From contig MU004242.1 in NCBI GenBank assembly GCA_010405405.1, forward strand, positions 720,748 to 784,747: a DNA stretch of 64,000 nt, written 5' to 3'. Source of the stretch: Microthyrium microscopicum (taxonomy: Eukaryota; Ascomycota; Dothideomycetes; Microthyriales; Microthyriaceae). Under the pieces are notes generated by a model that was given only the letters and a program-made list of their open reading frames with translations, ran no database searches and was not told where the DNA came from. Of the stretch, positions 11,841-56,296 are shown piece by piece. Both the position numbers and the translations under genes were made by a program. Position 1 is the stretch's first letter. Every line of letters begins with the position of its first letter.

Positions 11841-13722
11841 TTAATAGAACCATCTGAATTCTGGCGAGGCCGGACCATTGCGCAACTTTTCAGTAGGAAT
11901 ATCTCGCACACTCAACGGTCCTGTCTTTCGGTCTCTTCTCTTATTGTCGAATATCATGTAAGAGCCAAGAATGATAGTCAATATTGCCCCCATACCTCCG
12001 AAAGCTGCGGTAGTTGCTAGAGCCGGAATGTATTTTGGTGCGTCCTTGGAGGTCATGTTAGCAAATCTTCTCAACCCGATTTCAAGCCTCTCATGCTACA
12101 GAGCAGAGAACTCACTTTGTTTTGAAAGATATTTGACGAAAGCACTCCCATCAAATTAGCCATGGGCACACCGACTGATGTTAGGACTAGCCGCTTTCCT
12201 TCATGGGCAATATTGTTGTTGTACCAGACATCAAGAAGTACACTGGGAGCTGAAGTTCCCCTGAAAAAGTCAGTTTTGTCTTTCAGAGTTCAGAGCAACG
12301 TACCAAGTCATCATGAATGTCGCAAAGTACGCAACATGAAGCTCGTCGAGCACGTCGATCGAAACATATATACAGAATCCAATGAAAGTGAATATGAATC
12401 CCAGAGCAATAAACGGAAATCTCAAGCGGGTATAATCGCTTGCAAAGGCTAGAACCAGCAGCATCACTGCTCCAGAAACATTCGGCGCGACTGTGTACAG
12501 ATTCGTTTTGACTGGTGTGTATTTGAGTCTTGAAATGATTTGAGGAAGGAAGAGTTGCACTGATTGAAGTGGTACTCCCAGGCAAATCTCGATCGCGATG
12601 ATGAGCCAGCTTGTCCAATGTTTGAAGATACTGATGGATTCTTTGAAGTTGAACTTTTCGTTGACCACACTGGAGCTGTCGATTTGCATTCGGTAGAACG
12701 CAAGTTTCTTTTCAGACTCTGATAAGAAAGTGGCATCTGCTGCACTATGTGGGAGATACCAAAAGGCGAAAATACTGAAAAGAGTTGTACAGGTTCCTTC
12801 GATAATGAAGAGATATCTCCAACTGCTTAATGGTGCATTTTTGATCTGGAAAGTGCCAAAGGCCAAAAGTCCACCGAACGCAGATGCGATAGATTGAGCA
12901 GCATAGAATAAGGCTAATCGTCTAGCTAGCTCACCTCGACGATAAAAGCTACAGACAGGTTAGTAGAGCAACGGGTGGACAAAATAATTGGCGTGCCCCA
13001 ATCAAGTCGAATGGCTCCCACCAACGCTTCCAAACAGCAAGTACTATCAATCCCATCACAATCAATCGATAGTGGTGGAATAAACATAGTCCTTGGGAAA
13101 TAAAGCACTCGATAGCAAAGCGTGGCAGATGGAAGCCATAGAAGTCAGTGGGGTCCGCCAGTTATTTTGTCCTTTGGTTGTAGTGCTTCAGCATGAATAT
13201 ATTAGGGACTTACGTTGTTTGATAGTAGATGACCAGAGGAAAGAAGGCCGATTCAGACATTCCAAGAAACCAGCGTAGAGTCATAAGTCCTCCAAAGTTC
13301 TTAACGGCAGTTACAAGTAACGTAAGACAACCAAAGCAGAACATCATACAAGGTAGAACTTTATTAGGTCCGTACTTCTTCCCTAGTATTCCCAGGAATG
13401 GGGCTGTCAAGACGTATGGGATGAAGAATATACTGAGGATCAGATTGTACTGGCCATCTTTGAGGTGCAGGTCCTTTTCCAGTCCAGCTGTTTTGGCGTT
13501 TCCTAGATTCGATTTATCCAGAGAATTGAACAGATACATTACTGCCAAAACAGGCAAAATGCGCAAGTCGAATTTCCAAACGAGTATTCGCTCCGCCTTT
13601 GGGTCCATAATCATCTCTGTCTCTCCATCCTCGCCGATCACAGCCTGGGTTCCATCTTCTTTGATCTCGATAGCCTTGGAATGACTTCGGAGGGGGTCCT
13701 CACCCTTCAAATCCAGAGACAT
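11841..13722 (-). CDS. MFS permease of the Dal5/allantoate (anion:cation symporter) family
   Basis: Four exons (13722-13214, 12948-12304, 12260-12116, 12044-11841) encode about 500 residues with 12 predicted membrane spans. The N-terminal cytosolic tail is followed by ILPVLAVMYLFNSLDKSNLGNA, the signature first helix of the ACS/Dal5 group, and later LRWFLGMSESAFFPLVIYY. The C-terminus ends in EFRWFY, as in many fungal relatives. Such carriers import organic anions such as allantoate, vitamins or small peptides; the substrate cannot be told. The first intron is 265 bp because it holds a 196-bp palindromic element (12977-13172). The promoter has three HGATAR sites within 170 bp of the ATG (13835-13840, 13856-13861, 13892-13897), consistent with nitrogen regulation by an AreA-type factor (inference). 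Confidence 0.9.
12977..13172. mobile_element. Palindromic MITE-like element, copy A, in intron 1 of the permease
   Basis: A 196-bp element with 23-bp terminal inverted repeats (GGACAAAATAATTGGCG left, its near complement ending ATTTTGTCC right; about two mismatches). The right half shares GGGAAATAAAGCACTCG with copy B and a degenerate form of it with copies E and F. It lies wholly inside the 265-bp intron; removing it leaves about 69 bp, a normal intron size. No protein can be encoded. No clear target duplication is visible. Confidence 0.8.
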
Positions 13723-14490
13723 AATTTTGATAAAACTGAGGTTCGTATTGCTGTTTGAACAGACCGGGCTGTTTCGAATAACCCTCGAAGACTCTTAACA
13801 TGAAGCGGCAACCACTCATTTTTAACAGGTCCTCTTATCTCTCGTTGTAAAACTTTGATAAAGACAAGGATTTCTTGCGGGACTTTATGCTTGATAACGA
13901 TCTTCGGTAGGGTTCTTATTGGTGGAGAGCTCCTCCGAAGCTGCAGCTACTGAGATCGTGCCCACCTAAGGCGAGGAGAACTGCAGCTTTTGAATCATTG
14001 AGTAGAAAAAGAAATGTTAGCCTGGGGAAGCTGTTGTAATGTACGGCCTACATGAGGAATCGGAGTGATCTCCGAGAAATCCGATGGCTATCATCTCAAA
14101 GGTTTTCGATGATTCTTGACCGGTTTCGGAATTTTTGGCTAGATAAAAGGCAATTAATAAAGTCTCGATTGGTAGATATACGCAAGTATCGTTGAAGCTT
14201 TTAGGACGGTGACATATATTTCATAATTCCAAGCAGACTGAACTACCTCTTGAGGGTTTCTGAACATCAGTGAACAATTAAGCTTCTTTTATGGACAGGT
14301 TTCGGGGTTTTCTGGTTCATAGAATGACACGACTGATATCATAAATTGGTGATTCTTAGACCGGCTTACTGACGTGTTGGAGGCCCATGATATCAGTGTA
14401 ATACTTCAATCAATGTGCCTATCCCTTGTATTCGTGATGCGTTAATCATTTATGGCCAATTGTGTATGAGGCAATGGTAGCAGCAATTGT
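13723..14490. promoter_or_regulatory. Permease promoter and dehydrogenase 3' flank
   Basis: This intergenic stretch contains GATA-factor cores (AGATAA on minus at 13835-13840; TGATAA at 13856-13861 and 13892-13897) close to the permease start. The remainder (about 13920-14490) is AT-moderate with short inverted repeats such as GAAGCTGCAG/CTGCAGCTTTTG, and no recognisable gene. Confidence 0.4.
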
Positions 14491-15599
14491 TCACCATGGA
14501 AGCTGAAGAGGAATTGGAAGCTTGTCCTTTGGTCCGATGGTATCCTCAGCAGTTCCAATGTCTGCAGCGCCCCTTGGAGCCCAGTACGTTCCTGTTTTGG
14601 AGATATCAAAAGTCTCAATCCAATCAATCAAAGATTTTGCAGCGACATCAGGTGTCACAGCTATTTCGAATCAGCCAACACGTACCCAGATAGATAAAGA
14701 GAGTGGACGAGGTCAACGGCATGGCAAAATAAAGGGTGTACTCCAACAACTCTGATGGCTACCACCAGCGCTGCTAACCAAGGTGCTTTACTTCCCATCG
14801 TATCTAATAAATGCTCCCAGCCCGAGAGCCCTTGATGGGAAGTAAGGCACTCGACAACAGAGCGTAGCGTCTGGGCACCATCAGAGTTGATGGGAGTATG
14901 CCATTTATTTCGACATGCAGTTGGAGGTATTGCAGATTAACTTACCTCCTCCTTCATCCCAAAACTTATCAAATCCCACCCCCTTGGTCATTTCAGTCCG
15001 CATGAAGCCTGGATGAACCGAAACCACAGCGATACCTTGCTCTTTCATGTCCAAACTGAGCAGCTTGTTGACCATGTTTAACGCCGCCTTGCTCGCATGA
15101 TGACCATAATTGCCACCACCCTCCGATTCATGCCTCAACGTGATGCTGCCACTCTCTGAGCTGACCAGAATGACCTTTGAATCTTTTGCAAGTAAACCCG
15201 CTTTGACTAGCTTTTGGACTAGAAAGACAGGGCCAATAGCTGAGGTTGTGTACATTGTGACCTGTGCTGAATGTTAGAATTAGAGAATTCTGGTTCGACC
15301 ATTTTGACAACCTGCGCATCCCAGTCGGGCTTGTCAAAAGTCTCCAAGCCAAAGAAGCCAGCGGTAACAATAAGTGTGTCGATGGAGCCTTTGATATCAT
15401 TGAGACCTTTGATAACCTCGTCGCCTGCAGCAGGTGTACCGATATCGACACCAGTGATCCATTTGATGCTTGGGTCGCTATCTTTGGGAGCTGCTTTGCG
15501 ACCTGTGCCGAAGACTGTATTCGAGCTGTCCTTGACGTATTGTTCGGCCAGTGATCTCCCAAGGCCGCGGGTTGCGCCGACGATTGCGATGTTTGGCAT
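14491..15599 (-). CDS. Short-chain dehydrogenase/reductase (SDR), three exons
   Basis: Exons 15599-15312, 15261-14946 and 14660-14491 encode about 257 residues. The start MPNIAIVGATRGLGRSL contains the Gly-rich dinucleotide-binding motif (Gly8, Gly12, Gly14). ILVSSESGSI provides the catalytic-region serine. The active-site stretch reads NYGHHASKAALN: the Lys and preceding Ser are conserved, but the residue four before the Lys, normally the catalytic Tyr, is His, with a Tyr two positions further upstream. I recall the same GHHxSK form in other fungal relatives, so it may be a subfamily trait. The final exon (AVTPDVAAKSLIDWIE...) completes the usual C-terminal region. The last intron is 285 bp because it contains palindromic element B. 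The first intron starts GTTGTC, a weak donor. Substrate unknown. Confidence 0.88.
14723..14917. mobile_element. Palindromic MITE-like element, copy B, in intron 2 of the SDR gene
   Basis: About 195 bp with long imperfect terminal inverted repeats: GGCAAAATAAAGGGTGTACTC on the left and, complemented, GTCGAAATAAATGGCATACTC on the right, continuing into a shared CAACTCTGATGG. Size, ends and the internal TGATGGCTACCA and GGGAAGTAAGGCACTCG segments match copies A, D and E. It is wholly within the 285-bp intron 14945-14661, which would be about 90 bp without it. Confidence 0.82.
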
Positions 15600-16106
15600 T
15601 GTGCCGAGAGTCGAGCTTTGATGGACGAAATACAGCGATGTTGCAGGAAGAAGGTTTCGTAGTAAGTTGTAGTAGGCACAGGGACGATGAAGAGCTAACA
15701 TGATATACGTCACTCCATGACACCTTACTCCTGCATTCCACCAAGTCGATTGCTAATTCTTGGTAAGCTTATCTGGGCCAGTGTAGTACTCTCTGGGCCA
15801 GTGGATACCATCCATTAGACGAAGCATAATAAATATTCCATTCTTCTTCATAAGACATCTTGGGAGGAATTAGTGCTTAGAAGATATAAAATGATTGGAA
15901 CCTGCTCAGAACTTTGCCACCCCCCTACATCCGATGTCGGGTAGTATTGGATCCGGCACCATTTCTAATCTGTCTCCGCCACAGAAAATAGTTGATCGCC
16001 TCAACATTTTTATAGGCTGGTCCTCACAAACAACCACATCTGGGATCAGAGGCCGTCGAGCCAAAGGCCTGATCACCACTTCATCACTCCCTAGTTCCTG
16101 GATTTT
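15600..16106. other. Divergent intergenic region between SDR and F-box genes
   Basis: A promoter region of about 500 bp shared by two genes transcribed away from each other. I see no repeat, RNA gene or further coding segment, and no distinctive regulatory motif. Confidence 0.5.
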
Positions 16107-17312
16107 ATGGCACCAACTCGACTGAACCTCCAGCGCCTACCCGCCGAGATTGTCGAGCTCATCTGCGAACATCTTGAGGATCACGACTTGATTTCTATCC
16201 GGACTGTGTGCACGGCACTGTATTACCATAGTGTAAAAACTTGCGGATACCGATTATTCAGTGCTATCGGCACGAATCTTTCCAGAAAGAGCTTGGAAGC
16301 AATTCGGGAACAATTTTCAAACTCCAGGTTCTCACCCTGTGTACACCATCTCAAAATACAGAGCAGTTGGCTTGAAAGAGCGAATGATCTAGGCCGGGGC
16401 TTCACATGGAAACGAACAATATGTGGACGCCTCGAATATGACAACGAAGGGATCAAGGCTCTTGAGCAAATTCTTTTCAATATCTTTCCCAATTGTAGAT
16501 CGTTCTCATTCGCGCCAAATCTGGATGATCGAGAACGCATTCCAACCGACGTAAAAGATGTCATCATGACTATGGACTGCGTTTCCATAATCTTCCTGAT
16601 TGGCACTGAAACCGGGATGCCGATTCACGGATTCCATATGATTAGATCGAGATTCACATATCTCGATGACCTACAAGAATACGCGCCCGGATTTCTCGTG
16701 GATACCTGGTATCGATGCCCGCTCCGCCTGCTCGCAACCAAACCATTTAAAGAATCATGGAGTCATCTCACGGATCTGAGCTTAGCATTTGAGCTATCAA
16801 GCACATCATCCTATCGCGCCCCAGACTGGGTCAAAGCCTTACTGTCTGGTACCCCTAGTCTGACATCGCTGGATCTCACGCTACATAGAATAGGCATCAT
16901 GATGCCACAAGACTTCCTTGATGTCTTGTGTTCCCCACGACGGAAGTATAACCTACGAACACTCGCACTGTCATCGGTAGGTATGCCATGGGAAGATCTT
17001 CTTCGACTATTGGATGCGCACCGCAATTCACTTACAAGTTTACAACTTCATCACTCGTCATTTCCGTATCGTCGGGGCCATGTTACGCTGCTTAATGAAT
17101 TGGCTTCGATGCTTCCGCATCTGGACTTTATGAGTTTTGGCTGGCTGTTCCCAACATTGGATAACGATGAACAGATCTCCAGTGAAGACCGACAGGGGGT
17201 TACCATATGGAGTGGAATGCGAAATTCGGAGCGTCAAGTTTTCAGAACTAGCTACTCTGGATCTGAAATCGTCAGAGCGTGTGGTATTATGCTTAAAGCT
17301 CTAGAAGAATGA
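16107..17312 (+). CDS. F-box protein, substrate adaptor of an SCF ubiquitin ligase
   Basis: A single exon encodes 401 residues. Residues about 6-50 (LQRLPAEIVELICEHLEDHD, then LISIRTVCTALYYHS) are a clear F-box, which binds Skp1. The rest has scattered leucine-rich segments (SLTSLDLTLHRIG, LRTLALSSVGMPWEDLLRLL, SLTSLQLHHSSF), suggesting degenerate LRR-like repeats for substrate recognition, as in many fungal F-box proteins. There is no intron and no signal peptide. The target cannot be predicted. The ATG chosen is the first in frame and lies directly before the F-box. Confidence 0.85.
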   Translation: MAPTRLNLQRLPAEIVELICEHLEDHDLISIRTVCTALYYHSVKTCGYRLFSAIGTNLSRKSLEAIREQFSNSRFSPCVHHLKIQSSWLERANDLGRGFTWKRTICGRLEYDNEGIKALEQILFNIFPNCRSFSFAPNLDDRERIPTDVKDVIMTMDCVSIIFLIGTETGMPIHGFHMIRSRFTYLDDLQEYAPGFLVDTWYRCPLRLLATKPFKESWSHLTDLSLAFELSSTSSYRAPDWVKALLSGTPSLTSLDLTLHRIGIMMPQDFLDVLCSPRRKYNLRTLALSSVGMPWEDLLRLLDAHRNSLTSLQLHHSSFPYRRGHVTLLNELASMLPHLDFMSFGWLFPTLDNDEQISSEDRQGVTIWSGMRNSERQVFRTSYSGSEIVRACGIMLKALEE

Positions 17313-17399
17313 AACGCAGTTCAAAACAAGACCGATCAATTGCCAAATGCGCTACTAATACACTACAATCTGCCACGTTATTACCACCCCCGTTGCAGT

Positions 17400-18242: not shown

Positions 18243-18334
18243 GTTTATCAGAGATTGAAGTGAATGTGATTTAAAAGTGAGTGTTTAGCTGGAGACTGGA
18301 TGAACTACCTGGTCTCCCAGTGTTGGGAAACAAG

Positions 18335-23753: not shown

Positions 23754-26700
23754 ATGCATGGCCCGCCGATAAACCTCGAGTCTCTCGACCTCATTACCTT
23801 CCTACGAGTTCTCCCTGCCGCCTATAACTTTAGATACACTGAAGCCGTCCACAATGTCATCCTACAGAAGCTCTTCATAAGCTGCATTGGCCCCACCGGT
23901 AAGTGCCAAATCACATTTCTTGACGATATTGGATGAAATACAATACATCTCATCGCCACTGCATTCGATGGTTACCATAGAATGCGCTCCTAGTCCAGTG
24001 CTATGGATCCCACCGAATGCGGCGGGCGGCTCAGGCGTGTTGGCTCTGATCATAATCTGTTACTAACAACTTCCAGGACAATACAGCACTCTCTTCTTCC
24101 CTAACAATACTCCTCCATTCGACCCTGACGTCAAATGGTCTCTTCGCGAAGCTCAGGGCGCTATAGAAGGCGCCGAGTATACAGAAGCTGCCCGCGGTAC
24201 TGCTTGCGGCCATATATTTCGACCGGGCGAGGCGAGTTATCAATGCCGCACATGTTCTAGCGATCCAACATGTGTGCTTTGCGCGCGCTGTTTCGATGCC
24301 AGCGACCACGATGGACACCCTGTTTATATTCACGCTAGTGATGGGAATTCAGGATGCTGCGATTGTGGCGATTCAGAGGCCTGGAATCGGCCAGTACACT
24401 GCGGCATTCATTCTGAAGACGAAAGTGCACATGGTCATAAAGACAAGGCAAAGGTATCTGAGCTACCGGCGGAGTTGCTTGAGACTATACGTCAGACTAT
24501 TTCAAAGTCACTAGACTATATGTGTGATGTGTGGAGCTGTTCGCCAGAGCAGCTCAGAGCCAACAAGTCCAAAGATAGCATTTTGGAAGATGAGTGCCTA
24601 TCAAGACTGGCCAGTGAAGTTTACGGAGGCCCGGACTTGGCTGTACAACAATCTGGCCAAGAAGTTGAGTACGCATTGGTACTTTGGAATGACGAAAAAC
24701 ACACCGTGCAAGATGTCAGAGACGCTGTGGCAAGAGCATGTCGTGTTAGCAGCGCAGAAGGGCGGACTCGAGCCGATGAAATTGACAGAGTTGGCCGTAC
24801 CGTTGTCAAGTACTCCAAAGACATTAGCGAACTGCTCCGAGCGGCTGTAATCCTGGAACAACCCAAACTCTCAGTCACCATTCGGTCCTCGCGAGACATA
24901 TTTCGCGAACAGATGTGCGGTTCTATTGTCGAGTGGATTCTCGATGTCTCCGGTTGCGCTGTTGGCTCAGACGGCAAAATACTTAAGCAAATCATATGCG
25001 AGGAGCTCATGAAAGAATGGCGAGTCGGCAGCTTTGCTCATCACAAGATGGTGGGCCAAGATGGCATCTACGATCATGACAAGGAGGAGGTTCAGAAAGA
25101 TCTTCAAGAGAACCTGGGTCCGTATAGTACTGGTTTGATCCAGAGACTCCAACATGCCTGGGGTGCCGCAGCTGATGTGCAAGATGATTCAGTAGACGAC
25201 GATACTGTAGAGGATCATCCGCAAGATGCCAACGACGCCATGGATATAGACACCCCATTCATCCCCTCAAGTTCTCATGATGTAAATGATAACATGTCAG
25301 CAAGCGGCGTTGGTGAGACATCTGAAGGTCAAAACACTCCTGCCGCGAGCCAGAGTTCCGAAGGCGCTGCTCGTTCCAATAATGATTTCATGTTAGAAGA
25401 AGCTGACAGCAACGATGCCTTGCTGACCATACCTCGGACTCCTGCTGCAAGGGTTAAGAAGACCCCGAAGCCACCGAGTTATTGGCGAGATATGCCAGCA
25501 GGCTGTTACGCTCCTGGCCTCACTTCACCTGAAGAAAATCTTCGGAGAAGAGTTCGATTAGATTGGCTCATTCTGTATGACCTGAGAATGTGGAAACAAC
25601 TTCGCATCGACCTTCGAGAAGTCTTCATAACGACACTTATCACCATCCCCAAATTCAAGAGGCTTCTTGCACTGAGATTTGCTAGCGTCTTCACAGTGCT
25701 TGCCGAGCTACACCTCATCGCTGATCGCGAGCCAGATCATTCCCTCATCTTCTTATCTCTCCAACTCCTTACCGTTCCCTCCATTACTACTGAAGTTATC
25801 GAGAGAGGAAACTTCCTTACCAACCTAATGGCCATAATCTATACTTTCCTCTCAACTCGTCAAGTTGGCTATCCCCATCAAGTTGATCTCTCTGCTACTC
25901 TGGCTATCGACCAAGGAGTTGTGTTCAATCGCAGAGCGCAAACGTTCTACCACGATATGCGTCATATGCTTTCCTTGGAGATCGTTCGTGAACGAATACG
26001 AATTGAGCCTCGGTACCTCCTTCAATTCCTTGATATCGCCAAGATCCACCAAGGGATATGCCCCAATGTGCGAGCTGTTGGCGAACACTTGGAATATGAA
26101 ATGGAAGCTTGGATGAGTCTGTCAACAGTGATGACAGAGGTCATGAGGCTCTGTCGTTCCTTTGCAGAATCGTACTACATCCAAAATGAGGATCACTCTC
26201 CAAACTTGCAAGGCGCTCTACGAACCGCAGCAGGTGTCGCAATCATTAATTCGCTGGGTTGCGAATTGTCACGCTTTGAGCAAGGAGAGATCAAACAACT
26301 GGTGCAATTTCATAGCCTGGGACCATTCGAATTTGACCATCAACATGCACCGCCATACTGGACAGTTCGATACAAGGTTGCCGAAGAACCTATGAGCTGC
26401 TATCATCCGCTACACTATATCCTGTCCTGGCTGCTAAGCGAAGCACGATCAGAGAGCGCCGACTATATCAAAGGCTTGCTACACTTTTCGGAAAGTGATC
26501 TTCAACCAATGATTACATCCAAATCTACATACAAAAAACTCAAGGACGTTGGCGATATTCCCGGCAACTATCTCTTGGCCATGTTCGATCTTCCCATCCG
26601 TGTTTGCGCCTGGTTGGCACAAACTCGCGCTGGAATGTGGGTACGAAATGGTCTCTCGTTGAGGCATCAGATTCAGCAGTATAAGAGTGCTAGCCGAAGA

Positions 26701-29700
26701 GAGCTTACATACCAACGAGACATCTTTTTGGTCCAAACAGCTTTCGTCATTTGCGAGCCAGGAACTGTTTTGGCTACCTTGGTCGACCGCTTTGATCTGT
26801 TAGATTGGGCACAAGGCAATTACGAACCACATCCGGCACGAGATGAGGCGCAGACTATCGACGTTGCCGAGGAGTTCATTCATCTTCTCATTGTTATCCT
26901 ATGTGACCGACTAAACCTTATCGTTGGTGATCGCGAAAAGCTTGCCGAGACCATGACCAAACGGGAGCTCATCCACGCTCTCTGCTATAAGCCTCTTTCG
27001 TACGCCGAGCTAAAGAAATATCTGACTGAGCGTGTGAAGGAAGCCGACGATCAAGGCATTCTCCAAGAGTTGACTGCCTACAAACCTCCCGAGGGTATGA
27101 CAGATCATGGCACATTCACACTGAAAGATCAATATTTTGAAGAGATTGACCCATACTTGTCATATTTGACCCGCAATCAGCGCGAAGAGGCCGAAACAGC
27201 TTACCGGAAACATTTTGCAAAGAAACTCGGCAAGGATGTGTCCGAAATCGTGTATGAGCCTAATATCGTGCCGATCGAGTCTGGTTTGTTCAAGGACATT
27301 CACCAATTTACAAGAACGCCACTGTTCGCACAGGTCATCTTTTACTTCATTCAGTATGCTATGATGGCGCCAAACTTTGCACCCGATGTGCAGGCGACTA
27401 AGATCGAGCAACTCTTCCAGTTCGTTCTACAGCTTACACTTGTGGCTATTGTCTTGGACGACTCTACGGAGTTTGTGGAGGAGTTCGATGTGGTCATGGA
27501 TGTTGATGATCCTTCTGGAGAACTGAATGCGCCGCCAAAATACCTTAGCTTCTGCAAAATGATGTTGGAGAAGAAAGCGACCAAAGTTGTCTCAAACGAC
27601 ACTATCGCGAGTGCTCTTCGACGAAGTATGGAACTGGACCATTTGAAATCTTGTGCGCCACGCGTCAAGGCGATCTTCCAGCATCTCCAGGAGAAACGAC
27701 CAGATGATTTCCGTACTTGGATGACGAACCTTAACCTTCCAATGGATGTGTTTGGCCAATCGACCCAAGCCAATGATGCAGCTGCCAAAGAAATAAAGAA
27801 GAAGCAGGCTCTCGAGCGACAGGCCAAAGTGATGGCACAATTTAAACAACAACAAGCTTCATTTTTGGAAAACCAATCTCTGGACTGGGGCGAAGATTTT
27901 GAAGATCTTGATGATGATGAGATGACCGTTACTGCGCATGAAAAGGTGACTCGTTTTCCATCCGGCTCTTGCATTCTTTGTCAGGAAGAGACAGACGACA
28001 ATAGACTTTATGGTACTTTTGGATTCATCAGCGAGAGTCGAATGTTTCGAGACACTCCCATTCGTGATGCAGACTGGGTTAACGAAGTACTCGATACACC
28101 TGAAAGTCTCGATCACGAGTGCGTTGAGCGTCCATTCGGAGTTGCCTCCAAAAACCGCCGTGTCATTCGCAAGACGGGAACTGACGGCAAAGTCATTGAA
28201 CTCGAACGACAGGATCTAGCCAAAGGATTTCCAAACACATATATCTCTCCGAATCCGGTGAGTGTGGGCTGTGGCCATATCATGCACTATACTTGCTATG
28301 AGGTCTATGTGGCTGCGACTGCGAGGCGCCATCAGCAGCAAATTGCTCGGCATCATCCAGAGACTATTGAACGGCACGAATTCTTGTGTCCACTGTGCAA
28401 AGCGCTTGGCAATACGTTCTTGCCAATTATCTGGAAGCCGCAACCTCTACAGTATCCTGGCGCATTAGCTGGTCCTGAGGAGGACTTGGAGACGATGATT
28501 GCAGGAGTGACTGGCCAACTCAACGATTCTTCGTACTTGCAGCACGCTGAGACTGCGCTCAAGAGCTACGCAGAAAGCAATTTCGTGCCTGGATTGGCTG
28601 CGCAGGTTCAACCTAGTTTGATGGAGCTCAAGAATAAAAGAAGTCAGATTCCTCCACCGATACCAGGATTCCCAGGCCGTATCATGGACTTTGACAACCC
28701 GGTGGAGAGTTTGAGCAATATTTTGAGTCGACAAGATAGTCTCTCGTTCTCAGCTGCTAGCACGCCAATTGAGTCTCCACGGATATCAGGTGCCCTCAAC
28801 GTATCAGAACTGCGAAGAGTATACGACACACTAGAAGCCGCACTCAAACTTGCAGATCTCCAATATCCGAACAGCTACAGTACCAGCGAATGGGACGAAT
28901 TTGGCGCTCTGATCTCTGCACTTTCCGGATCGATAAAAGCAGCTGAGATCGCCCAACGTGGTGCCGCTTCGCCCAATTTGGACGCCACCTTCATTGAGAA
29001 GATTAGCTCCCAATCTCTTATGCATCTGAGAGTGCTGAGCGAGACTATCATGTCATTCCTTGCAGTCAATCTCATGAGCAACTCTACCAACAGCGACTCT
29101 AGCCACAATTCCAGCCAGTTCGAACTCGAGAGCCGTCTTGAACGACATATGGGAAGTCTGTTCCTACATTCTAATGATATCGAGGGCGCATTCTCGAGGT
29201 TTCCGGCGTTACTTGCGCAAGATCCATTCGCTGTCTTCACGGAACTCACGCTTTGCCCTGTGCCGGATTTTGATCTCAAGTTCCACATGAAGCTTTTCTA
29301 TATGGCCGAGATTGTAAGGGTTATCGTGTCTTTCTCAACCAAGACCGATGAAGACCCTGATATCAACGACGAAATCCTCAGCATCCGAACACGCCCCAGC
29401 GAGCCAGCCCCTCCCGCCTTCCTAGAACTCGTCAAACTCATCGGCGAGCACCTCCACGGTGGCCTAGGTAGTTACGTATCCTCCCAAGCCCTCTGGATGC
29501 TCTGCCGAAAATACGCCCTCCCCTTTGTCCGCAATTCCGCCATTCTCGTACATATCCGCTACGGCATCGACTTTCCTATCCCCACCACACCTTCTTCCCT
29601 ATCTGAACTCGCACGCCTGTCCACACTTCTAGATCTACCCTCCCTATCAGATCTAGTCTCCGAGTTCATTACTTCCCCTTCTGCGCGGGTGATGGGTACG

Positions 29701-30551
29701 AAGTGGGCGCAGCATTACACCGAGCAAGACGACATTATAAATCTCGCTCATCCTGCTATCTTTGAACTCGTAGGCTTGCCGAAGAACTTTGATACATTGC
29801 AGGATGAAGTTATGAGACGGAAATGTCCTGCTACTGGACGCGCGCTCTGGGATCCGGCGATCTGTCTACTTTGCGGCGAGATTTTCTGCTCACAGAGCCA
29901 GTGTTGTACGAAACCAGCGACTGATGGGCATGGGAACACTGGGAGAAAGGTTGGTGGTTGCTGGCAACATCGTGTCAAGTAAGTTTCCCTCAAAACCCCC
30001 TTTGCCCACACCATCCAACCGCTCGACAAAAAATAAGTGGACGCGCTCCCATCAAGTGCGGTGTCTACCATCTGCTGCGCTTTGGCACCGGTGCTCTATT
30101 CCCCTTGCCAATGATTATATACCGTTGGATTATCCTTCGAGTACGCTGGGTGATAAGGCATTTTCTCGTTATGAAATGCGATGGTAGACACCGTTGTCGA
30201 TGGGAGTGCGCCATCATTTACGCCCCTCATTCCCATCCTTTCCCTCCTATCCTATCCTTGTTTCTTTACTAACAATCTCACAGATGCGGCGGCAAAGTCG
30301 GCATTTTCCTACATATCCGCAAATGCACAATACTGTACCTGCATGAAGGCAGCGGCTCATTCACCGTCGCTCCCTATCTTGACAAATTCGGCGAGGCAGA
30401 TCCCAGCTTGAGGAGCAATTTGCAGCTCTTTTTGAATCAGAAGAGATATGATAGTATTTTTAGGTCTGCGTGGCTGATGAGCCAAATTCCGAGTGTCATT
30501 GCGAGACGGTTGGAGGGGGAGATTAGCACAGGGGGATGGGAGACTTTATAA
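23754..30551 (+). CDS. ubr1: UBR1, N-recognin E3 ubiquitin ligase of the N-degron pathway
   Basis: Exons 23754-23898, 24077-29978 and 30284-30551 encode about 2104 residues. UBR1 recognises destabilising N-terminal residues and ubiquitinates proteins with Rad6. The UBR-box zinc finger spans about residues 90-165 (ACGHIFRPGEASYQCRTC, CFDASDHDGH, CCDCGDSEAWN), including the His/Cys/Asp residues that hold a basic N-terminal residue. A ClpS-like region follows near 245-300 (YALVLWNDEKHTVQDV). The RING-H2-type finger lies at about 1345-1500 (CILCQEE, CGHIMHYTC, CPLCKALGN). The C-terminal cap ends in EGEISTGGWETL and includes RKCTILYLH...GSGSF..APYLDKFGE; it is supplied by the last exon and would be lost if the intron were missed. 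Both introns (178 and 305 bp) contain a palindromic element. Confidence 0.96.
23949..24033. mobile_element. Palindromic MITE-like element, short copy C, in UBR1 intron 1
   Basis: About 85 bp forming a long imperfect hairpin: left arm GCATTCGATGGTTACCATAG, loop, right arm complementary (CTATGGATCCCACCGAATGC). The segment CTCATCGCC...GATGGTTACCATAGAATGCGCT aligns with copies D2 and E. It lacks the GACAAAATAA-type ends, so it seems a short or decayed member. It lies within intron 23899-24076. Confidence 0.7.
30024..30226. mobile_element. Palindromic MITE-like element, copy E, in UBR1 intron 2
   Basis: About 200 bp with inverted repeats of some 35-40 bp. The left end reads GACAAAAAATAAGTGGACGC then CTCCCATC...CGGTGTCTACCATC; the right end is the complement, GATGGTAGACACCG...GATGGGAGTGCGCC. 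Its right half aligns with copy F (CGCTGGG..ATAA.GCAT) and more loosely with A and B. It is contained in the 305-bp intron 29979-30283. Confidence 0.82.
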
Positions 30552-44037: not shown

Positions 44038-44074
44038 ACACAGCTCCCATCTCCTTAATGTTGGCAGGGAATAT

Positions 44075-48851: not shown

Positions 48852-51366
48852 ATGTTTATGGTCAATCGCCGTATGTATACTCTGACCCAGTTACTCTTCC
48901 CGAAACTGACACTCTGTCTAGTCGGCAAGTTCCTCTTTGGGGATGGCTCAAAGGAATCCCTCATAGAAATACCTGACGGCCAACTTTACGTTGTTCGCCC
49001 ACTCTCCCTCAAAGGCTATTCCGAGCTTATCTACAAAGACGCCAAAGCTTCCATTCGTCGCACTGGAGTCGAGTTCCAATATCAGCTAGTGATAACCCGC
49101 ATATACGAAGAAGGAGAGGAAGAGCTACTTGACGAAGACAGCGCTGACGAAGCTGGTCTTGATGAGCTGAACAAAGACGAGCAGTCTTTCTTGCTAGATC
49201 AGGCTTTAGAGTTCCGCGTCGACATTCGAGACACTGGTGAAAAGGTTTTCGCCTGGCGCGATTTAAGCGGCGCAAAGGAAGACTTATGGGAATTTGTCTG
49301 TGACACTTCGACTAGACCTGAGACAGTCGAGACATTCGAAATCGCCGCCATTCGCTGTCAATTCGAGCGCAAATACAAGCGCAACTCGGATACTGCCACA
49401 GAAACTGAACTTCAAGAATTCCATTTCGCAGAACAACCTATACCTTCCGCCAGTCCTATCCTCAAACCATCATCCGCCTCTCCTACAATATCTCCTTCAC
49501 ACACCTCCACACGACTACAGGCTGACGCCACTGAAGCAGACGGAAGCATGTCCTCTAAATCACCAGCTGGAAGAGGGGTCGGCGCAAGCTCTTCTCAAGC
49601 TGCTCCCCAGCCCGTAGCTCATCCTGAGGGTCGCGAGACCTATACTCGTGAAGCGGGTGAGCTGCATCTGTTTGACATCGATACTGGTACATTTGTCCTA
49701 CAAGACAATGCGGTCGAAGCTGTAGTCATGGACTTGGGCAGTTGGAACTACTGGCTCAAAATCACTGGACAAAGCCGAAATTGGCTCGGTCGCATGATTG
49801 AAGACGATATCAACCCCGTTTTCAACTTTGAATACCTTTCTGCAATCTTCAACGTTTATGGCGCAGATCATTCAGCCTATTCATGGCTTCTTCGGTTCAA
49901 AGATCGAGAAGTTCTGGAAAAGTTCCAGCAAGGTCTTATGCAAGCGCTATGGGAACACAACAATCAGGTAAAATGGGCCAAGCTCAAAGACAACGACCAG
50001 GATTACATCCTAGAAGCGTTCAACGACATGACAATGGAAGATGTTGAAGAAGAGCCTGAGGAAGAAATTGAAGAGAGTGATGAGGCAGAAGAGGAGCGAC
50101 CTCGTCACCGCTCCGAGGAGTATGATTCTGATGAATCGCAAGATGATACGGAACAGCAAAAGAAGGACGGAAACGTCAACTCACAGCTTGCAATTGGTCA
50201 ACGCCATAATCGAGCCTTTGTTGTGCGTGGTTCGAATATTGGTGTATTCAAGAACGACGACGATGGGCACAATCTCTCATTCGTCACCAATATTCAAAAG
50301 GTTGCCACTCCAAAGGGCAAACTATTCTCGCCAAAGAAGGTCATGTTGCATGCTGGTGACGCAAATCTGATCATGCAAAGCGAGGACAATCCCAACGGAG
50401 TTTATCGCATGGATTTGGAGACTGGAAAGGTTGTCGATGAGTGGAAGGTGCACGATGATATTGCAATCAATACCTTTGCTCCAGAAACCGTAAGTCTTTC
50501 AATATGAAAACACGAAACCACTTTTACTAACAATTATCCAGAAATTCGCCCAAATGACCGACCAGCAAACTTTCCTCGGTGCATCCAAGAACGCCATGTA
50601 TCGCGTCGACCCCCGTCTAGGCGGCAACAAGCTCGTCGACACCGACCTAAAGCAATACGCCTCCAAAACCGGCTTCACCACTGTCGGCACCACCGAGCAA
50701 GGCTACATCGCCGTCGGTTCCGAAAAAGGCGACATCCGTCTCTATGACCGTCTCGGCATCAATGCCAAAACCAACCTCCCTGGCCTCGGTGATGCCATCA
50801 TCGGCATCGACGTCTCCGCCGACGGCCGCTGGGTTCTCGCGACCGCCAAAACCTACCTCCTCCTCGTCGACACACAACAAAAAGACGGCAAATTCGAAGG
50901 CCGTCTTGGCTTCGAACGTTCCTTCCCAAAAGAAAGCAAGCCCGAGCCCCGCCGCCTCGCTCTGACTCCCGCACATGTAGCGCAATTCATGCACGAAACA
51001 AAAGCACCCATCAATTTCACGCCAGCGAAATTCAACACGGGCCCAAATCTTGAGGAAACTACCATTGTCACCGCCACCGGTCCCTTCGTCATTTCCTGGT
51101 CTCTCAAGAAGATCGTAAAGGGTCAGCGTAATCCTTACAGCATCAAGCGCTATACCGACGAAGTCAAGGCGGATAACTTCCGCTTCAACAGCGATAAGGG
51201 CATTATTGTGGCTTTGCCGAATGAGGTCGATGTGGTTATGAAGAAGGCGCTTAAGGCACCCACGCGAGAGAGCATTGCGGCACCACGATTGAGTGCTGCT
51301 GGGAGACGGAGTGGTGCGCGGAGAAGCGGGTATTTGGGGAGAGATGATATTGTTAAGAACTACTAA
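48852..51366 (+). CDS. vid27: VID27, cytoplasmic protein linked to vacuolar import and degradation
   Basis: Exons 48852-48870, 48922-50489 and 50542-51366 encode about 803 residues. The protein starts MFMVNRLGKFLFGDGSKESL, where the first intron (51 bp) is a multiple of three and free of stops, so it can be mistaken for coding. The N-terminal PH-like region (about 1-200), the acidic middle (EEPEEEIEESDEAEEERPRH) and the C-terminal WD40-like domain (FVVRGSNIGVFKND, then YRVDPRLGGNKLVD, LKQYASKTGFTTV, GYIAVGSEKGDIRLYDRLGI, DVSADGRWVLATAKTYLLLV) follow the VID27 order closely. In yeast it is linked to vacuolar degradation of fructose-1,6-bisphosphatase, though its exact role is unclear. Confidence 0.95.
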
Positions 51367-51962
51367 GAAAGATTGAATGGTTTGGTTGGGCTGAGTGAGA
51401 TTCGTGTGCAGATTGACTTGGTGGACGCTTGTTGTTGTTGCGTCCGTAGTCTCGCTGGATAGAATGTGTTGCTGTTTTCTTGTTATATTTCTGCGTTGTT
51501 GAACGGCCCTATTTTGTGTTTTATGTTCATGATGGGAAGGGTGTTTGTTTTGAAAGTATCTTTGGCGTATTTGATTTGACGAGCGTCGATAGTCTCCGCT
51601 GCAGTTGTTAGGATCGGTTTTGGGTTTGCTTGGGCACTGGTGGATTTGATGTCTATGCGTCTAAGAATCCAGTTCTTGATGTGTGGATTTGATGAAGGAT
51701 GCGGGATATGAATCAGTAGAAGGAAAGTATGGTAGATAGCTACATGAACTCTTCAGTATGTTAGGAAGTTAGGAACGACATTGCATCCCTTTTCTAAATC
51801 ATTGATCGAATTTCATCTTAAGACGCGCAAGTCTATTCTACAAGTCGACTCGAGGAGTATTTCCAACCTCAATATGCAATGACTTGCTTCCTTCACCAAA
51901 CAATACCTGTGTCTTGGTTCCCACTTTAGCATGGCAACCAGATCTCCACCTCAGATGCCCCA
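51367..51962. other. Convergent intergenic region, no gene seen
   Basis: About 600 bp of 3' flank for VID27 and the small Cys-rich gene, with T/G-rich stretches (51430-51560) that fit a 3' UTR. Nothing else seen. Confidence 0.5.
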
Positions 51963-52190
51963 TTACATCCTGCTCATCGCTTCGGCAGCTGCTGACTTCG
52001 CCATCGCAGCTTCGTATTCAATTTCGCAATCTCGACAAGGCTCGGTTTTGAGATGGATATGGTCATGAGGAACGCAGTAGATCTGGTGAACTACACAGAA
52101 CACCGGCTTTCCCTGTTCCCGTTTCCTGCAGTTTCCCTTGTATTTCTTTGGGCAATGGTGTTTCGTTGTTCCTACTCTCCCGTGTGGCAT
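51963..52190 (-). CDS. Small Cys/His-rich protein, probable zinc binder
   Basis: A 75-residue open frame starting MPHGRVGTTKHHCPKKYKGN. Its Cys and His are spaced as possible zinc ligands (HHCPKKYKGNC, FCVVHQIYCVPHDH, CRDCEIEYE), and I recall similar short proteins with a GKPVFC..HQ..C..H pattern in other ascomycetes. There is no signal peptide. The function is unknown, and an upstream exon cannot be excluded. Confidence 0.5.
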   Translation of the reverse strand: MPHGRVGTTKHHCPKKYKGNCRKREQGKPVFCVVHQIYCVPHDHIHLKTEPCRDCEIEYEAAMAKSAAAEAMSRM

Positions 52191-52805
52191 TGTGATATGA
52201 TGCCTGGATTGGCGCAGAAAGGTCTTGAGTGTAGAAAGTGCGTGATGATTGGTATGGATGGCTGTATGTTTGCGAATAATAAACTCAACATAGCTGGTAT
52301 GTATGCTAGAAAGCTTATTAGTACATATTCTGAAAGATGGTGTTGCTCATATTCACAGCAAGTAGCCAAATGACCTATATCTATTAGCTATTGACCAGCC
52401 AGTGTTGCAATTTTGTGGCTGCGCCTTCCCTGACTTATAGCAAGCAGTCAAAGGGTCCATGATATAAGTGACAGATCGTAATAGAGTCTATACCGCTTGA
52501 GAAGTTCCAGTGTCAATGTGTGCATCTCCCATCGGATGCGCTGGGAATTAAAGCATCTTTTCGTTGACAAGTGCGATGGTGGCCATCGCAGTCGATGGGA
52601 GCTGATCAGTTGTTGGGCTCACTGGAAGGGCAGTGTCATTGTTAATCACATTGGCTCAAGAGCCATATTATCAATTGAAATCTTGAAAGATACCCTGCTC
52701 AAATACAGAAATTTGCAAAGCTCTCGTGTGGAGGAATCGCCAGGCACAAGCAGTATGTCGGCTGGGAGCTTTTCAGGACCAGGAGAAAATACTCGCTTTC
52801 ACCAC
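52191..52805. other. Intergenic, contains palindromic element F
   Basis: About 600 bp. The only recognisable feature is the short palindromic element at 52525-52606. Open frames here (for example 52053-52373 and 52497-52823, plus) look like chance. Confidence 0.45.
52525..52606. mobile_element. Palindromic MITE-like element, short copy F, intergenic
   Basis: About 82 bp. CTCCCATCGGATGCG on the left and CGCAGTCGATGGGAG on the right are inverted. The segment GCGCTGGGAATTAAAGCATC followed by TTTTCGTT...GTGCGATGGT aligns with the right half of copy E. It is the only member found outside an annotated intron and seems to be a shortened copy. Confidence 0.7.
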
Positions 52806-53170
52806 TATGCAATAAAGTCATAACAGGCCCACCGTGATCTAGGATTTGTGACATCAGATGTTGTTACTTCTACTTGACGCTCAGTATCCGTAGCCATCAC
52901 ATCGTCGCGAATAATCACCCTTATCGAAAATGGCATTCCTGTGCACCCCGATCCATTCTCAAACTGCAGCAAGCTGGAGTTACAGCCGAAGCGAATAGTG
53001 TGACGGCTACCTGAAAGGTTATGTACATTGTCAATAAGACAAAACTTGAAGTTTCTTCAGCCTTACATTTGTGTCATAAGGCTGAAGTGAAGCCTTACCT
53101 ATTTTGATTTAGCTCAGCCTTGACTCGCTCTTTCCTTAAATTCTCCCACCATATACCTTCTTATCACCTA
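52806..53170 (-). CDS. Possible coding segment, incomplete model
   Basis: A minus-strand segment 53007-52806 reads as a coherent sequence (SRHTIRFGCNSSLLQFENGS, CTGMPFSIRVIIRDDVMATD) ending at a stop. An intron (GTAAGG...CAGGTAG) would join it in phase to an upstream stretch at about 53157-53099 (EGIWWENLRKERVKAELNQN). No start codon in frame was found upstream, so either an exon is missing from my model or it is a decayed gene. No family is recognised. Confidence 0.3.
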
Positions 53171-53513
53171 GGTATTTCTTTCGTAACGGTATGTAAAAGT
53201 CATCGCCCAGAAACTTAATGTTCTTCGCTACTGTCAATAGCCACGGAAGACCAATTTTTGAGAATTGTTACCATTGACTAGCAATTCAGCGCGCAACAGG
53301 TCAAAAAGCAAACGGTCAGTGTCACCAACCGAAGGGATCTGTCACCAGAAAGATAAAGTGGGGTAGGAAGACAAAGTTCTATCATTTATTGTACAAGCGC
53401 CGACTCACAGATATCAAAAACTTCATCCCTTCCTTATTTCCAGCAATCATCTACTGCCGCCGTAGTGTAGATGCTTAAAGCCTCCTGCAACAAATCGATC
53501 CCGAAGCGACATC
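53171..53513. other. Upstream region of the APH-type kinase gene
   Basis: About 340 bp with the promoter and 5' UTR of the kinase-like gene. Nothing distinctive seen. Confidence 0.45.
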
Positions 53514-54806
53514 ATGGCCGAAAAGGAGCAAGCGATGAGATCTCACGAGAATTCTATGGACTTGGCCTCCTTAAGTCTAAGGCCCAATATTGAGTCCCCC
53601 CCACCAAGTCCCACAGGTTCAGCTGTTTCGGAATCCTCAACGGTGGAGTGGAACCACGTACCTTTCACCGATTTCCAAGCGCAAGTTCTTGAGCTTGGCC
53701 TCGAAATTCTCAATGACTCAACTAGAAGTTCGATCGAGATTGAACGGCTAAGAGGTGGAGGTGAGAACCGAGTAATTGGACTAAAACTCACAAAGCCTGC
53801 AACATTCCAGCAACCTTCGGTGGTAGACAATTACGTTCTTCGAATCCCTCGCCGAATTTGCGATGCCGATTTCCCACATACCATGGCCCAATTGGATTTT
53901 GCTGCACGAGTGAGCAGTATTCCAGTTCCAAAGACAATCAAGGTGGAATGTTCAAAAGAGAATCCTATTCAGAGTCCTTACCTTTTGCAAGAGCGTATCC
54001 CAGGTCAATCTCTGCTGGACGCTTGGCCAGATTTCAATCTCTCACAAAAGCTGTCCGTGACTCGACAGATCGCAACCTTGTTCCAGTCGATTCGAGCCTT
54101 CCCAGTTTCACGTGGAGGCATTCCGGATCCAAAAAAAGAACTATTACCTTGGCCGCATCAACCTCCTATACTCCGATATCCTCAATGCAACTCTTCAGGC
54201 GAATCTCTGACTGGACCAGCATCTACGGCGTTATTCCAGAGTCCAACGGACATGTTGCAATCACGGTTGGATGTTTGGATGGAGAGAGATATCAAACATA
54301 GAAAGCCACTTTGGGAAATGCTCTCCCAAGGCTTCAAAAATCTCAACGCCACCACCGGTCTTTTCGAAAGCGAGTTTTATTGGTACCACGGAGACTTCCA
54401 GCCTCGGAATCTTCTCGTAGCAGTCATCAGCGAGGAGGAAGTCAAGATTACCGGTGTGCTAGACTGGGACAACAGCCATTTCGCCCCTGCGGTTGTAGCG
54501 TTTGAGCCGCCTTGTTGGCTGTGGATGCAAGATTACTGGAAGGATGCTAGTGACCCAACACCTGATGGCACGGAATGGTACATGACCGAGGCGATGCTCT
54601 GTGAAAAAGCTGGTTTGATACCTACGAACGATGACGACAAACAGATCAAAGAATGCTTTGAAGAATATTTGCAATCGCCTTATGTGCTGAAGTTTGCGTA
54701 TGCCAACCATGCGGTTGATGCGAGAAGACTGTACAAAATGGTGCTTGATGGGCTCACGGATCAAGACGTTGGGGAGGTCGCAGTGAAAATCTGCGAACGT
54801 CACTGA
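53514..54806 (+). CDS. Aminoglycoside-phosphotransferase-fold (APH) kinase-like protein
   Basis: A single exon of 430 residues. The N-terminal lobe (about 50-150) has the ATP-binding beta strands (IERLRGGGENRVIGLKL and NYVLRIPRR, where the second Arg/Lys-containing strand fits the nucleotide-binding lysine position only approximately). The catalytic loop is YWYHGDFQPRN (His292, Asp294, Asn299), and the metal-binding site is VLDWDNSHF (Asp317/Asp319). This pattern defines the APH/choline-kinase-like family, expanded in filamentous fungi; substrates are generally unknown and may be small molecules. The protein is probably cytosolic. The N-terminal 45 residues are Ser/Pro-rich. Confidence 0.88.
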   Translation: MAEKEQAMRSHENSMDLASLSLRPNIESPPPSPTGSAVSESSTVEWNHVPFTDFQAQVLELGLEILNDSTRSSIEIERLRGGGENRVIGLKLTKPATFQQPSVVDNYVLRIPRRICDADFPHTMAQLDFAARVSSIPVPKTIKVECSKENPIQSPYLLQERIPGQSLLDAWPDFNLSQKLSVTRQIATLFQSIRAFPVSRGGIPDPKKELLPWPHQPPILRYPQCNSSGESLTGPASTALFQSPTDMLQSRLDVWMERDIKHRKPLWEMLSQGFKNLNATTGLFESEFYWYHGDFQPRNLLVAVISEEEVKITGVLDWDNSHFAPAVVAFEPPCWLWMQDYWKDASDPTPDGTEWYMTEAMLCEKAGLIPTNDDDKQIKECFEEYLQSPYVLKFAYANHAVDARRLYKMVLDGLTDQDVGEVAVKICERH

Positions 54807-55001
54807 CTTTCTGTCTGTTTAAGTCTGTTTGGAGGCTCGTTTACCCTGCTAACGGAAGCGATTGTAGTCGAAAAGGTTGAATATATAATCCTGAGAGTTC
54901 AATAGTGTAGCAGAAATTATCAAATTGTGTCTAACTCAACTGGCTTGAGATCAACAGCTTCCAATAATACTCATACTCATATACCTTCAACCACGGTCAT
55001 C

Positions 55002-56296
55002 ATGAACTCAAATCACATCAAAGACCACGAAATGCAAGCTACCGCGGCTGGTCCGCAAGATGTAGTGTTATTCACACTAGGTCAGGGGATATCAGCAACC
55101 TCAGCTCACTTCATGACATGGTAATTACCCTGAATCAGAGCAGTTCTGACGAAATCCAAAAACAACATATCTCCCATCGCACTCGATGGCTCCCATAAAA
55201 CCTGTTCTTGTTCGAGTGCTGTGGGTCCCATCAGATGCGATGGCACCCATAACACTTGAACATTATTTTGACCGGGCAAGGCTAAACAGTCCTTTCAACG
55301 TGTTGTCCAAAATAATGATCTTATACTAAAACATTTTAGGTAAGCCTTTTCTAGATTATACCATATTTCTTGACAACATTCAACAAAATCAAAAACAGCG
55401 TTGCTCCCATCGCATTCGATGGCTACCATATGATGCGCTTGTGATCGAGTGCTATAATTCCCACCGCACTCGATGGCTTCCATCAGAAAGCACTTTTATA
55501 ATCTCTACTGACCAATTCCAGGGATGCCATATACAATGACAGGGACGAATCTCGCCGGTACAAAATCCAGAGCTCGTGCAATGTAAGCCTAAAAGATGGA
55601 GCCATTGAATTCAAGGCTGGCACTGCGTTCACGAAAGAATCTCTGTATTCCAAACAAAAGAAACACGGGTTCTTGCAGACGGGCCCCCCCGGACGGCACG
55701 CATGGCTCATTTGCGTGGGTATAGAAGGAGGCCCCATGAACGGACCGGAGCCACCGAGGATAGATCTTGAGCTGAGACTTGTGAGTGTCTAAGCAAAGAG
55801 CACTCTCTTCTTCATGTACTAACTCTTCTAGGAACCAGGCGATGACAAATGGCGCCGCGCAGGCAGCAATCTCATCACCTATAAGTCCATAACCAAGGCG
55901 TTCTGTCACGAAACAAAGCTACGAAAGCTCCTGGAGGTCACAAATTTTATGGATGGCGAATTATTTGTGATGCCAATCAAAGGTCCGATCGAGATTCCTG
56001 ACAATGGCTTGCTTGAGTTCCAAGTACACAATCGAGGCTTCGTGTCCAGGGGTTTGAGAGGACAGCATGTCGGCCGTGGACCAGTGATAGTGCGATGTGT
56101 TGTCAATGACGACCTGCCAGGTACTTATGAGTTGTTGCATGAGCATCTCAAACTTGGGGGATGGCATTTCGAAAGTTGGGGTAGCGGAGAGACTTTTGGG
56201 GAGCCCATTGTCATTGATACAAGGAGCTCATATGGTCCTAAAGTCCCCAAATCTGTCAGATTTGTACCACAATCAGGGGCAAGTGGTAGTGGATGA
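55002..56296 (+). CDS. Unrecognised fungal protein, three exons, large repeat-filled first intron
   Basis: Exons 55002-55120, 55522-55780 and 55832-56296 encode about 280 residues. The first exon gives MNSNHIKDHEMQATAAGPQD and VVLFTLGQGISATSAHFM, then the 401-bp intron containing two palindromic elements (D1, D2), then WDAIYNDRDESRRYKIQSSC and an ENDWW-free beta-rich sequence (AFTKESLYSKQKKHGFLQTG, PPRIDLELRLEPGDDKWRRA). The end is LPGTYELLHEHLKLGGWHFE, then SFGEPIVIDTRSSYG-type strands. There is no signal peptide and no named domain. The splice sites GTAATT...CCAG and GTGAGT...TCTAG are standard and the frame is continuous. Confidence 0.72.
55151..55272. mobile_element. Palindromic MITE-like element, copy D1, in intron 1 of the 55-kb gene
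   Basis: About 120 bp. CTCCCATCGCACTCGATGGC on the left pairs with its complement (GGGTCCCATCAGATGCGATGGC) on the right, and the right end is ATTATTTTGAC, a complement of the family end. The same left arm, CTCCCATCGCATTCGATGGC, begins copy D2 233 bp further on. Host intron is 55121-55521. Confidence 0.75.
55384..55500. mobile_element. Palindromic MITE-like element, copy D2, in the same intron
   Basis: About 115 bp. It resembles copy D1 and the left half of copy E (GGCTACCATATGATGCGCTT). Between D1 and D2 a GTCCAAAATAAT stretch (55305-55316) faces the end of D1, so a third, decayed copy or chained insertion is possible. All of it is removed by splicing. Confidence 0.72.

Follow-up and report, generated by a model that had tools for sequence, protein, structure and literature searches.

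An introner-like intron family in Microthyrium microscopicum with a core homologous to a co-resident miniature transposon

We analysed 64,000 nucleotides of contig MU004242.1 (positions 720,748 to 784,747, forward strand; hereafter the window) from the fungus Microthyrium microscopicum (Dothideomycetes; Microthyriales). The assembly, GCA_010405405.1, comprises 36.9 Mb in 20 contigs. Two repeat families meet in the window. One consists of miniature inverted-repeat transposable elements (MITEs), which are non-autonomous DNA transposons with terminal inverted repeats (TIRs). The other consists of repeats that are themselves introns, of the kind reportedly described in fungi by van der Burgt et al. 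in 2012 as introner-like elements (ILEs). The genome holds a young MITE subfamily with TIRs and target-site duplications (TSDs), more diverged relatives of that subfamily, and a diverged ILE family with a MITE middle. The best explanation, to which we give a probability of about 0.7, is that a MITE landed in an intron and that the chimeric intron then multiplied as an introner-like family.

A sequence-only reading of the window had described seven short segments as one palindromic MITE-like family. Each segment does match at least one other (blastn). Six lie in introns of four genes, according to our trained gene finder and inspection. However, the segments are of two kinds: MITEs and ILE introns. 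The MITEs, given without strand, are copy A (A subfamily, 12969..13180), copy B (B subfamily, 14714..14923) and the degraded copy D (D subfamily, 30016..30226). Copy A has TIRs (CAACGG..GGTTG) and an imperfect TSD (TAGAG/TAGTG). Its host is a minus-strand intron, placed by eye at about 12949-13213, in an MFS transporter gene; the MFS_1 domain is in open reading frame (ORF) 13210-13722. Copy B is in an intron of a minus-strand gene and is flanked by the TSD GAGGT at 14709-14713 and 14924-14928. Copy D, whose right end is degraded, occupies the last intron (29979-30283) of a plus-strand gene for a UBR1-like E3 ubiquitin ligase (23754..30551). We define an empty site as the locus after removal of the element and, for MITEs, of one TSD as well. 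The empty sites of copies A, B and D are predicted to be introns of 51 nt, 71-78 nt and 90-95 nt, respectively. Copy A was labelled intergenic in one gene-finder run and became intronic only once one TSD had been removed too.

Three further segments belong to ILE introns on the plus strand. Segment 23949-24033 is the core of a 178 bp UBR1 intron (23899..24076). This intron matches our ILE profile at positions 13-220 (E 4e-40; it is among the 17 profile-building copies), and the gene finder called the same GT..AG. Segments 55151-55272 and 55384-55500, taken before as separate elements, are really parts of two abutting intron units arranged head to tail. The first unit (219 bp, 55121..55339) has a degenerate 5' end and matches profile positions 30-220 at 55146-55339 (E 2e-30; absent from the profile set). 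The second (182 bp, 55340..55521) matches positions 1-220 (E 5e-38; in the profile set), and its donor abuts the acceptor of the first. Removal of 55121-55521 leaves one frame, open for 215 nt upstream and 268 nt downstream. The sequence-only reading held in part. The GACAAAATAA-type inverted-repeat end that it gave to the whole family is present in MITEs A, B and D but restricted to MITEs, where the full terminus is longer (CAACGG...) and accompanied by TSDs. Host splice sites lie outside the element at A, B and D, as proposed, whereas at 23949, 55151 and 55384 the repeat reaches GT and AG. The proposed choice between introner-like elements and MITEs tolerated by splicing falls away, since both are present, as separate though related families.

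The ILE repeat is ~220 bp long and runs from the 5' to the 3' splice site. Our ILE profile has 220 positions and was built from 17 introns; a second sample consisted of 18 loci picked by similarity to the consensus. When copies are aligned with their flanks, conservation extends from the donor, GTAAGATTTCCCCGTG... (GTAAG), to the acceptor, ...TATACTAACAAATTCCAG (YAG), and the exons are unalignable. Two loci in the set are exceptions: L036 consists of arrayed cores, while clear ILE ends are missing from L039. The profile also found copies in unselected flanks (L016:6642, L033:5670 and several in L028). We retained 40 near-full-length hits and set shorter profile matches aside. In 35 of these, GT and AG were found automatically at the expected ends. 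The remaining five are three copies whose GTAAT donors were missed by the pattern (L055, L063 and L071:235) and two in tandem pairs (L068 and L069). Exact removal of the intron keeps at least 100 nt open on each side for 25 of the 35 ILEs (14/20 outside the profile set and 11/15 inside), while joins shifted by 1-2 nt average 8.5. Ten of the 24 spliced proteins on hand were tried, and in five a Pfam domain spans the join: MFS_1 (L035), FHA (L038, profile 2-67 of 67), protein kinase (L043), ADH_zinc_N (L050) and OPT (L052). The other five match no family or carry a domain confined to one side. We conclude that the repeat unit is the intron, and that its removal restores frames and domains. The introner reading made from sequence alone is supported, but on a different ground: the repeat unit is a whole intron with both splice sites.

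Our gene finder combines a periodic coding model with donor, branch point, acceptor and intron length. It was trained on 273 kb, and its weakness is fragments of 1.2-1.4 kb. Applied to 38 ILE empty sites, it labelled 19 as sense exon and none as antisense exon, in agreement with introners working within coding sequence in the sense direction only. ILEs are long for this genome. They measure 161-244 nt (n=35), and the median over 132 introns called in the 273 kb, a few ILEs among them, is 53 nt, with 110 of the 132 at 40-89 nt.

The family is dispersed through the genome. There are 132 matches to a 26-nt core pattern and 45 to a 3'-end pattern; reversing either pattern as a control gave 0. The consensus gave 135 candidates, 40 of them scored. 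A search with copy 55384 returned 26 matches: the query itself, three in loci already in the set, 21 in 20 new loci and one outside the set. The 100 listed core matches and the consensus matches together define 98 distinct places, and adding 3'-end matches brings this to 124; these are counts by sequence, in which some places hold several core matches and not all places are shown to be genic. Copies are diverged. Among 34 aligned, median identity is 65% and the best pair reaches 84%, so that none are near-identical. Decay is evident in a 107-nt remnant (L028:2680-2786). The surrounding region, L028:2100-5300, carries four ILE introns within 3.1 kb, apparently in two adjacent genes and in differing states of decay; one contains a MITE. 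Three loci (L040, L041 and L070) contain dimeric ILEs, longer than monomers, whose internal junctions (about 181 to 23) almost coincide. Copying of whole introns as units would lead one to expect such a near-shared junction. Abutting ILEs are joined as AG|GT at 55339/55340 in the window and at 534/533 in L068. At L047:589-1022 two ILEs lie ~8 nt apart by their profile ends; they are either separated by a micro-exon or an abutting tandem.

UBR1 carries one ILE and one MITE-bearing intron. The gene model has relatives over its length and encodes zf-UBR, ClpS, UBR1-like_wing and PRT6_C domains. The ILE follows codon 48, and the MITE-bearing intron interrupts codon 2016. A protein search found 1162 relatives, of which 120 were listed; by our own sorting, 47 of the 120 are from environmental sources only. 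Among these 47, 27 end exactly at residue 2016, seven stop within 2029-2063, and 13 extend to the C-terminus. Read without splicing, the donor AA|GTAAG encodes K followed by the stop TAA at residue 2016. We infer that the 27 are probably unspliced ORFs cut at an old intron, at the site of the MITE-bearing intron. All 27 start at residue 1-8 and cover residues 38-58 with at most one gap. Since residues 38-58 are continuous in unspliced ORFs, there is no intron at the ILE position. Hence, the UBR1 ILE position is intron-free in relatives, and the expectation that introns carrying copies would be missing at the same position in relatives was borne out for this ILE in 27/27 informative cases. It did not extend to the MITE-bearing intron, which is old and common to relatives. 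The pattern indicates that the MITE entered an old intron and that the ILE made a new one.

The MITEs are ~210 bp long and end in CAACGG...CCGTTG. In well-kept copies the full ends, which extend beyond those first described, are CAACGGCATGGCAAAATAAATGGCG...CGCCATTTATTTTGCCATGCCGTTG, and TIRs are present on MITEs of the A, B and D kind. Direct repeats of at least 5 bp flank 18 of 24 copies, a count made with a tolerance of up to 2 nt for end position and with no shuffled control. Another subfamily is represented by L018:7883-8076, with AGGGT at both sides. A 25-nt terminus pattern, allowing up to three mismatches, has 194 matches in the genome and its reversed control 0; at two ends per copy, we estimate ~100 copies of subfamily B. 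Identity across 20 MITE-B copies has a median of 94% and a maximum of 98.6%. In size, TIRs, TSDs and copy number these elements are typical of MITEs. A candidate autonomous element between two facing TIRs (C12, L073) was rejected, as the interval contains ordinary-gene open frames, three MITEs and one ILE.

MITEs had also been proposed to sit preferentially inside introns. Gene-finder labels for 31 MITE empty sites are 24 intergenic, six intron and one exon; this sample is non-random, with 20 copies drawn from the best matches to copy B and the window's three included. Three of the six intronic copies are A, B and D, which prompted the proposal. Outside the window, 3/28 copies are in predicted introns (L020, L027 and L028, the last inside an ILE). 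A MITE at L033:6102-6296 was labelled intergenic but appears intronic on inspection; it would be a fourth. Background labels over 20 loci of 10 kb are 49.1% intergenic, 46.6% exon and 4.3% intron. Because 3/28 is near the ~8% of non-exonic DNA expected to be intron, a preference of MITEs for introns is unsupported. We rejected it, as it is not seen outside the window.

The ILE core is homologous to the MITE. Scored with a profile made from ILEs only, six MITE sequences and a hairpin at 52520 in the window each beat all 1000 of their own dinucleotide shuffles. Since ILE core and MITE are both palindromic, we also used palindromic nulls (1000 each). L018 scored 34.9 against a null maximum of 23.7, and B scored 33.9 against 22.5. 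In L018, the best match, an unconstrained alignment starts by pairing ILE position 38 (CATCCGATG) with MITE base 1 (CAACCGATGG). L014 likewise aligns from the exact MITE terminus at one of its ends. Among ten ILE/MITE alignments (five sequences, both strands), these two begin right at a MITE end. Accordingly aligned, the ILE reads as a 37-nt donor segment, ~100 nt of apparent MITE origin and ~80 nt with the putative branch point and acceptor.

Loci where MITE and intron occur together are also present. The INTERMEDIATE states include window copies A, B and D, genic introns with a MITE inside. At L028 a B-type MITE lies within an ILE with the TSD AGCGC, and its removal restores the call of a 215-nt intron. 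On the minus strand of L033:5940-6300, a near-full-length MITE is followed by 38 nt, ILE positions 105-223, an acceptor at 5940 and then exon. This may be a composite intron between both families, or a MITE that entered an ILE. At L019:5131-5181 an ILE donor segment (positions 2-51), without an intact GT, lies 24 nt beyond a TSD-flanked MITE.

Homology could in principle run the other way, with the MITE derived from an ILE core that gained TIRs and was then moved by transposase. The greater divergence of ILEs (median 65%, maximum 84%) than of MITE-B (94%, 98.6%) would suit this order of events, as would the ILE segments beside MITEs at L019 and L033. Two observations argue otherwise. First, homology begins at the MITE terminus in the best-matching subfamily. 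Second, L018, L033, L032 and A (24.2, 22.7, 20.0 and 18.6 bits with the ILE profile) outscore young B (10.2 bits), as would be the case had the ILE arisen from an older MITE member. We regard the reverse direction as improbable.

Less probable still is that ILE core and MITE each took up a third repeat independently. A potential source would be the seventh segment of the window (52525), which the gene finder labelled intergenic. It belongs to a short intergenic hairpin remnant on the minus strand (52520..52612), around which no gene was called. The hairpin stands alone and resembles both ILE core (ILE profile E 1.9e-8) and MITE (MITE profile E 2.5e-8); by eye it has no clear TIRs or TSD. Another would be L036:40-746, a tandem array of ILE-core-like units in which the site of the best core is labelled intergenic. 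Some ILE/MITE alignments, moreover, do not stop at the MITE terminus. Shared uptake of such a repeat sits poorly with the length of the match, ~100 nt, and with its start at the MITE terminus, as seen in L018 and for one of the L014 ends.

Insertion sites were compared for 28 ILEs: the 25 whose frames stay open, together with L055, L063 and L071. N-G|G sites account for 19/28 ILEs and for 21/107 predicted ordinary introns, a pattern that fits insertion at proto-splice sites. An AG/GY site preference was seen by van der Burgt et al., as reported in the text of PMC8469720; in our set only 5/28 ILEs are at AG|G. The two flanking exons share repeats of 1 nt at most. Repeats between exon end and intron end are 0-2 nt in 26/28 ILEs (one 3, one 5), and those between intron start and exon start are 0-2 nt in 28/28. 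Hence, there is no TSD or co-opted splice site at the intron ends in any of the 28. Direct reading of the profile finds no TIRs at ILE ends either, since GTAAGATTTCCCC and TACTAACAAATTCCAG, which are conserved there, do not form inverted repeats. TSDs are thus on MITEs and on none of the tested ILEs.

Introners of DNA-transposon type were reportedly described by Huff et al. in 2016. ILEs might similarly move whole, by DNA transposition with co-option of splice sites, as in the algal introners treated by Gozashti et al. (2022; PMC9860276). The text of that paper attributes TSDs or TIRs to most non-ascomycete introner families, and a transposon relative is present in the Microthyrium genome. As the ILE ends are not inverted repeats, exon/exon repeats stay within 1 nt in all 28 and exon/intron end repeats are mostly 0-2 nt, we consider such movement quite unlikely. 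Very unlikely, finally, is that only MITEs are involved, inserting into or tolerated in existing introns, with no introners: this describes window copies A, B and D and those at L020 and L027, and the MITEs do have TIRs and TSDs, but it is refuted for the ILE subset, where the repeat includes both splice sites (at 23949, 55151 and 55384, and in 35/40 profile hits plus three by eye) and informative relatives have no intron at the UBR1 ILE position.

The preferred explanation, a MITE-born intron family, would involve the following steps. A MITE of CAACCGATGGACAAAATAAC type would have inserted into an ordinary intron. The chimeric intron would then have spread into coding exons, multiplying whole and spliceable, with its copies entering mostly N-G|G sites, in sense orientation and without target duplication. 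Copying may have proceeded via excised intron RNA at G|G, by reverse splicing into DNA or by a variant of it that uses break repair. The MITE-derived inverted repeat may have helped the intron to become mobile.

Several observations weigh against this explanation. For subfamily A, the score of 26.9 exceeds the palindromic-null maximum of 24.8 by a narrow margin. Eight of the ten ILE/MITE alignments do not begin right at a MITE end: five have an internal start, one begins 2 nt outside and two extend 16-18 nt into the flank. ILE segments adjoin MITEs at L019 and L033. The direction from MITE to ILE would follow from parsimony. Intron gain in UBR1 is judged from the protein sequences of relatives, at one locus. 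Splicing of ILEs is predicted from frames, domains and motifs. The exact intron was called in place for only 9/38 ILEs; among the 38 empty sites, 18 were labelled intergenic and one antisense intron, and several of the 18 (L035 and L052, for instance) are genes with a domain, overlooked by the finder in short fragments. No transposase was found, one distant TIR pair (L073) having been examined and no search by transposase family made. RNAalifold found no conserved fold in ILEs. The arms of the ILE core pair in 81.8% of cells and slid controls in 27-46%, but column shuffles already average 80.3%. Given the shuffles and the missing consensus fold, today's ILEs may keep only a fossil of the inverted repeat.

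How fungal introners originate is a standing question. The Microthyrium ILEs resemble fungal ILEs as set out in the text of Collemare et al. (2015; PMC4457414): they are similar introns scattered among unrelated genes of a Dothideomycete, exceeding ordinary introns in length, with both splice sites inside the repeat, gain at an empty position (here at one locus), decay to shorter forms and inverted repeats. They differ in their maximum identity of 84%, in their host order, Microthyriales, and in a core homologous to a co-resident TIR/TSD MITE; the same text accepts families of low identity in D. septosporum as ILEs too. With DNA-transposon introners, as presented in the text of PMC9860276, they share that mobile elements are introns and a tie to a non-autonomous DNA transposon. 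In those families there that have TIRs or TSDs, however, these mark the introner itself, whereas here the transposon piece is internal and the ends have neither. A third comparison is with symmetrical sister stwintrons of Hypoxylaceae and Xylariaceae. The text of PMC8469720 and PMC12403724 describes these as proliferating introns with inverted repeats and no TSD that function on the coding strand only. In stwintrons the repeats sit at or close to the ends, the introns are nested twins or descend from such twins, and that text mentions no exon bias; the Microthyrium repeat, by contrast, is internal and MITE-like, and insertion sites are biased to N-G|G.

Ascomycete introners have been described as lacking TIRs and TSDs. 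Hence, a MITE-cored family is a new variant. The Microthyrium ILEs have the ascomycete pattern at their ends and transposon ancestry inside. A literature search of open-licence papers, without supplements, returned no report of an introner family with a MITE core, and none joining introners and Microthyrium; two papers matched introners, MITEs and terminal inverted repeats together (PMC3510045 and PMC7789003). According to the text of Fekete 2021 (PMC8469720), inverted repeats distinguish fungal introners and are unexplained by reverse splicing; that model is called unsatisfactory there, since it does not need a symmetric structure. If true, birth from a MITE would tie these puzzling self-spreading introns to an identifiable transposon. 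A tentative generalisation, possible though doubtful, is that insertion of a palindromic MITE into an ordinary intron gives rise to fungal ILEs, the inverted repeat rather than a transposase enabling self-copying at the intron level. Such an origin would account for the inverted repeats in fungal ILEs as well as for the missing TSDs. A TIR/TSD transposon family, MITE-bearing introns, a MITE within an ILE and MITE-cored introners all coexist in one 37 Mb genome, which makes the steps from transposon to mobile intron testable across strains and species.

Other features of the window were also recorded. A protein search with ORF 16107-17312 found no relatives. VID27 is encoded in the window and matches a protein assigned to Microthyrium microscopicum at 491 of 491 aligned residues, which points to that species or a very near one. 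Positions 3001-11000 form an AT-rich block (19-29% GC per kb; neighbours 44-51%). The block contains a 285-bp direct repeat (3325-3609 and 10440-10724), whose copies are 7.1 kb apart and 88% identical. The block may be an old long terminal repeat element altered by repeat-induced point mutation.

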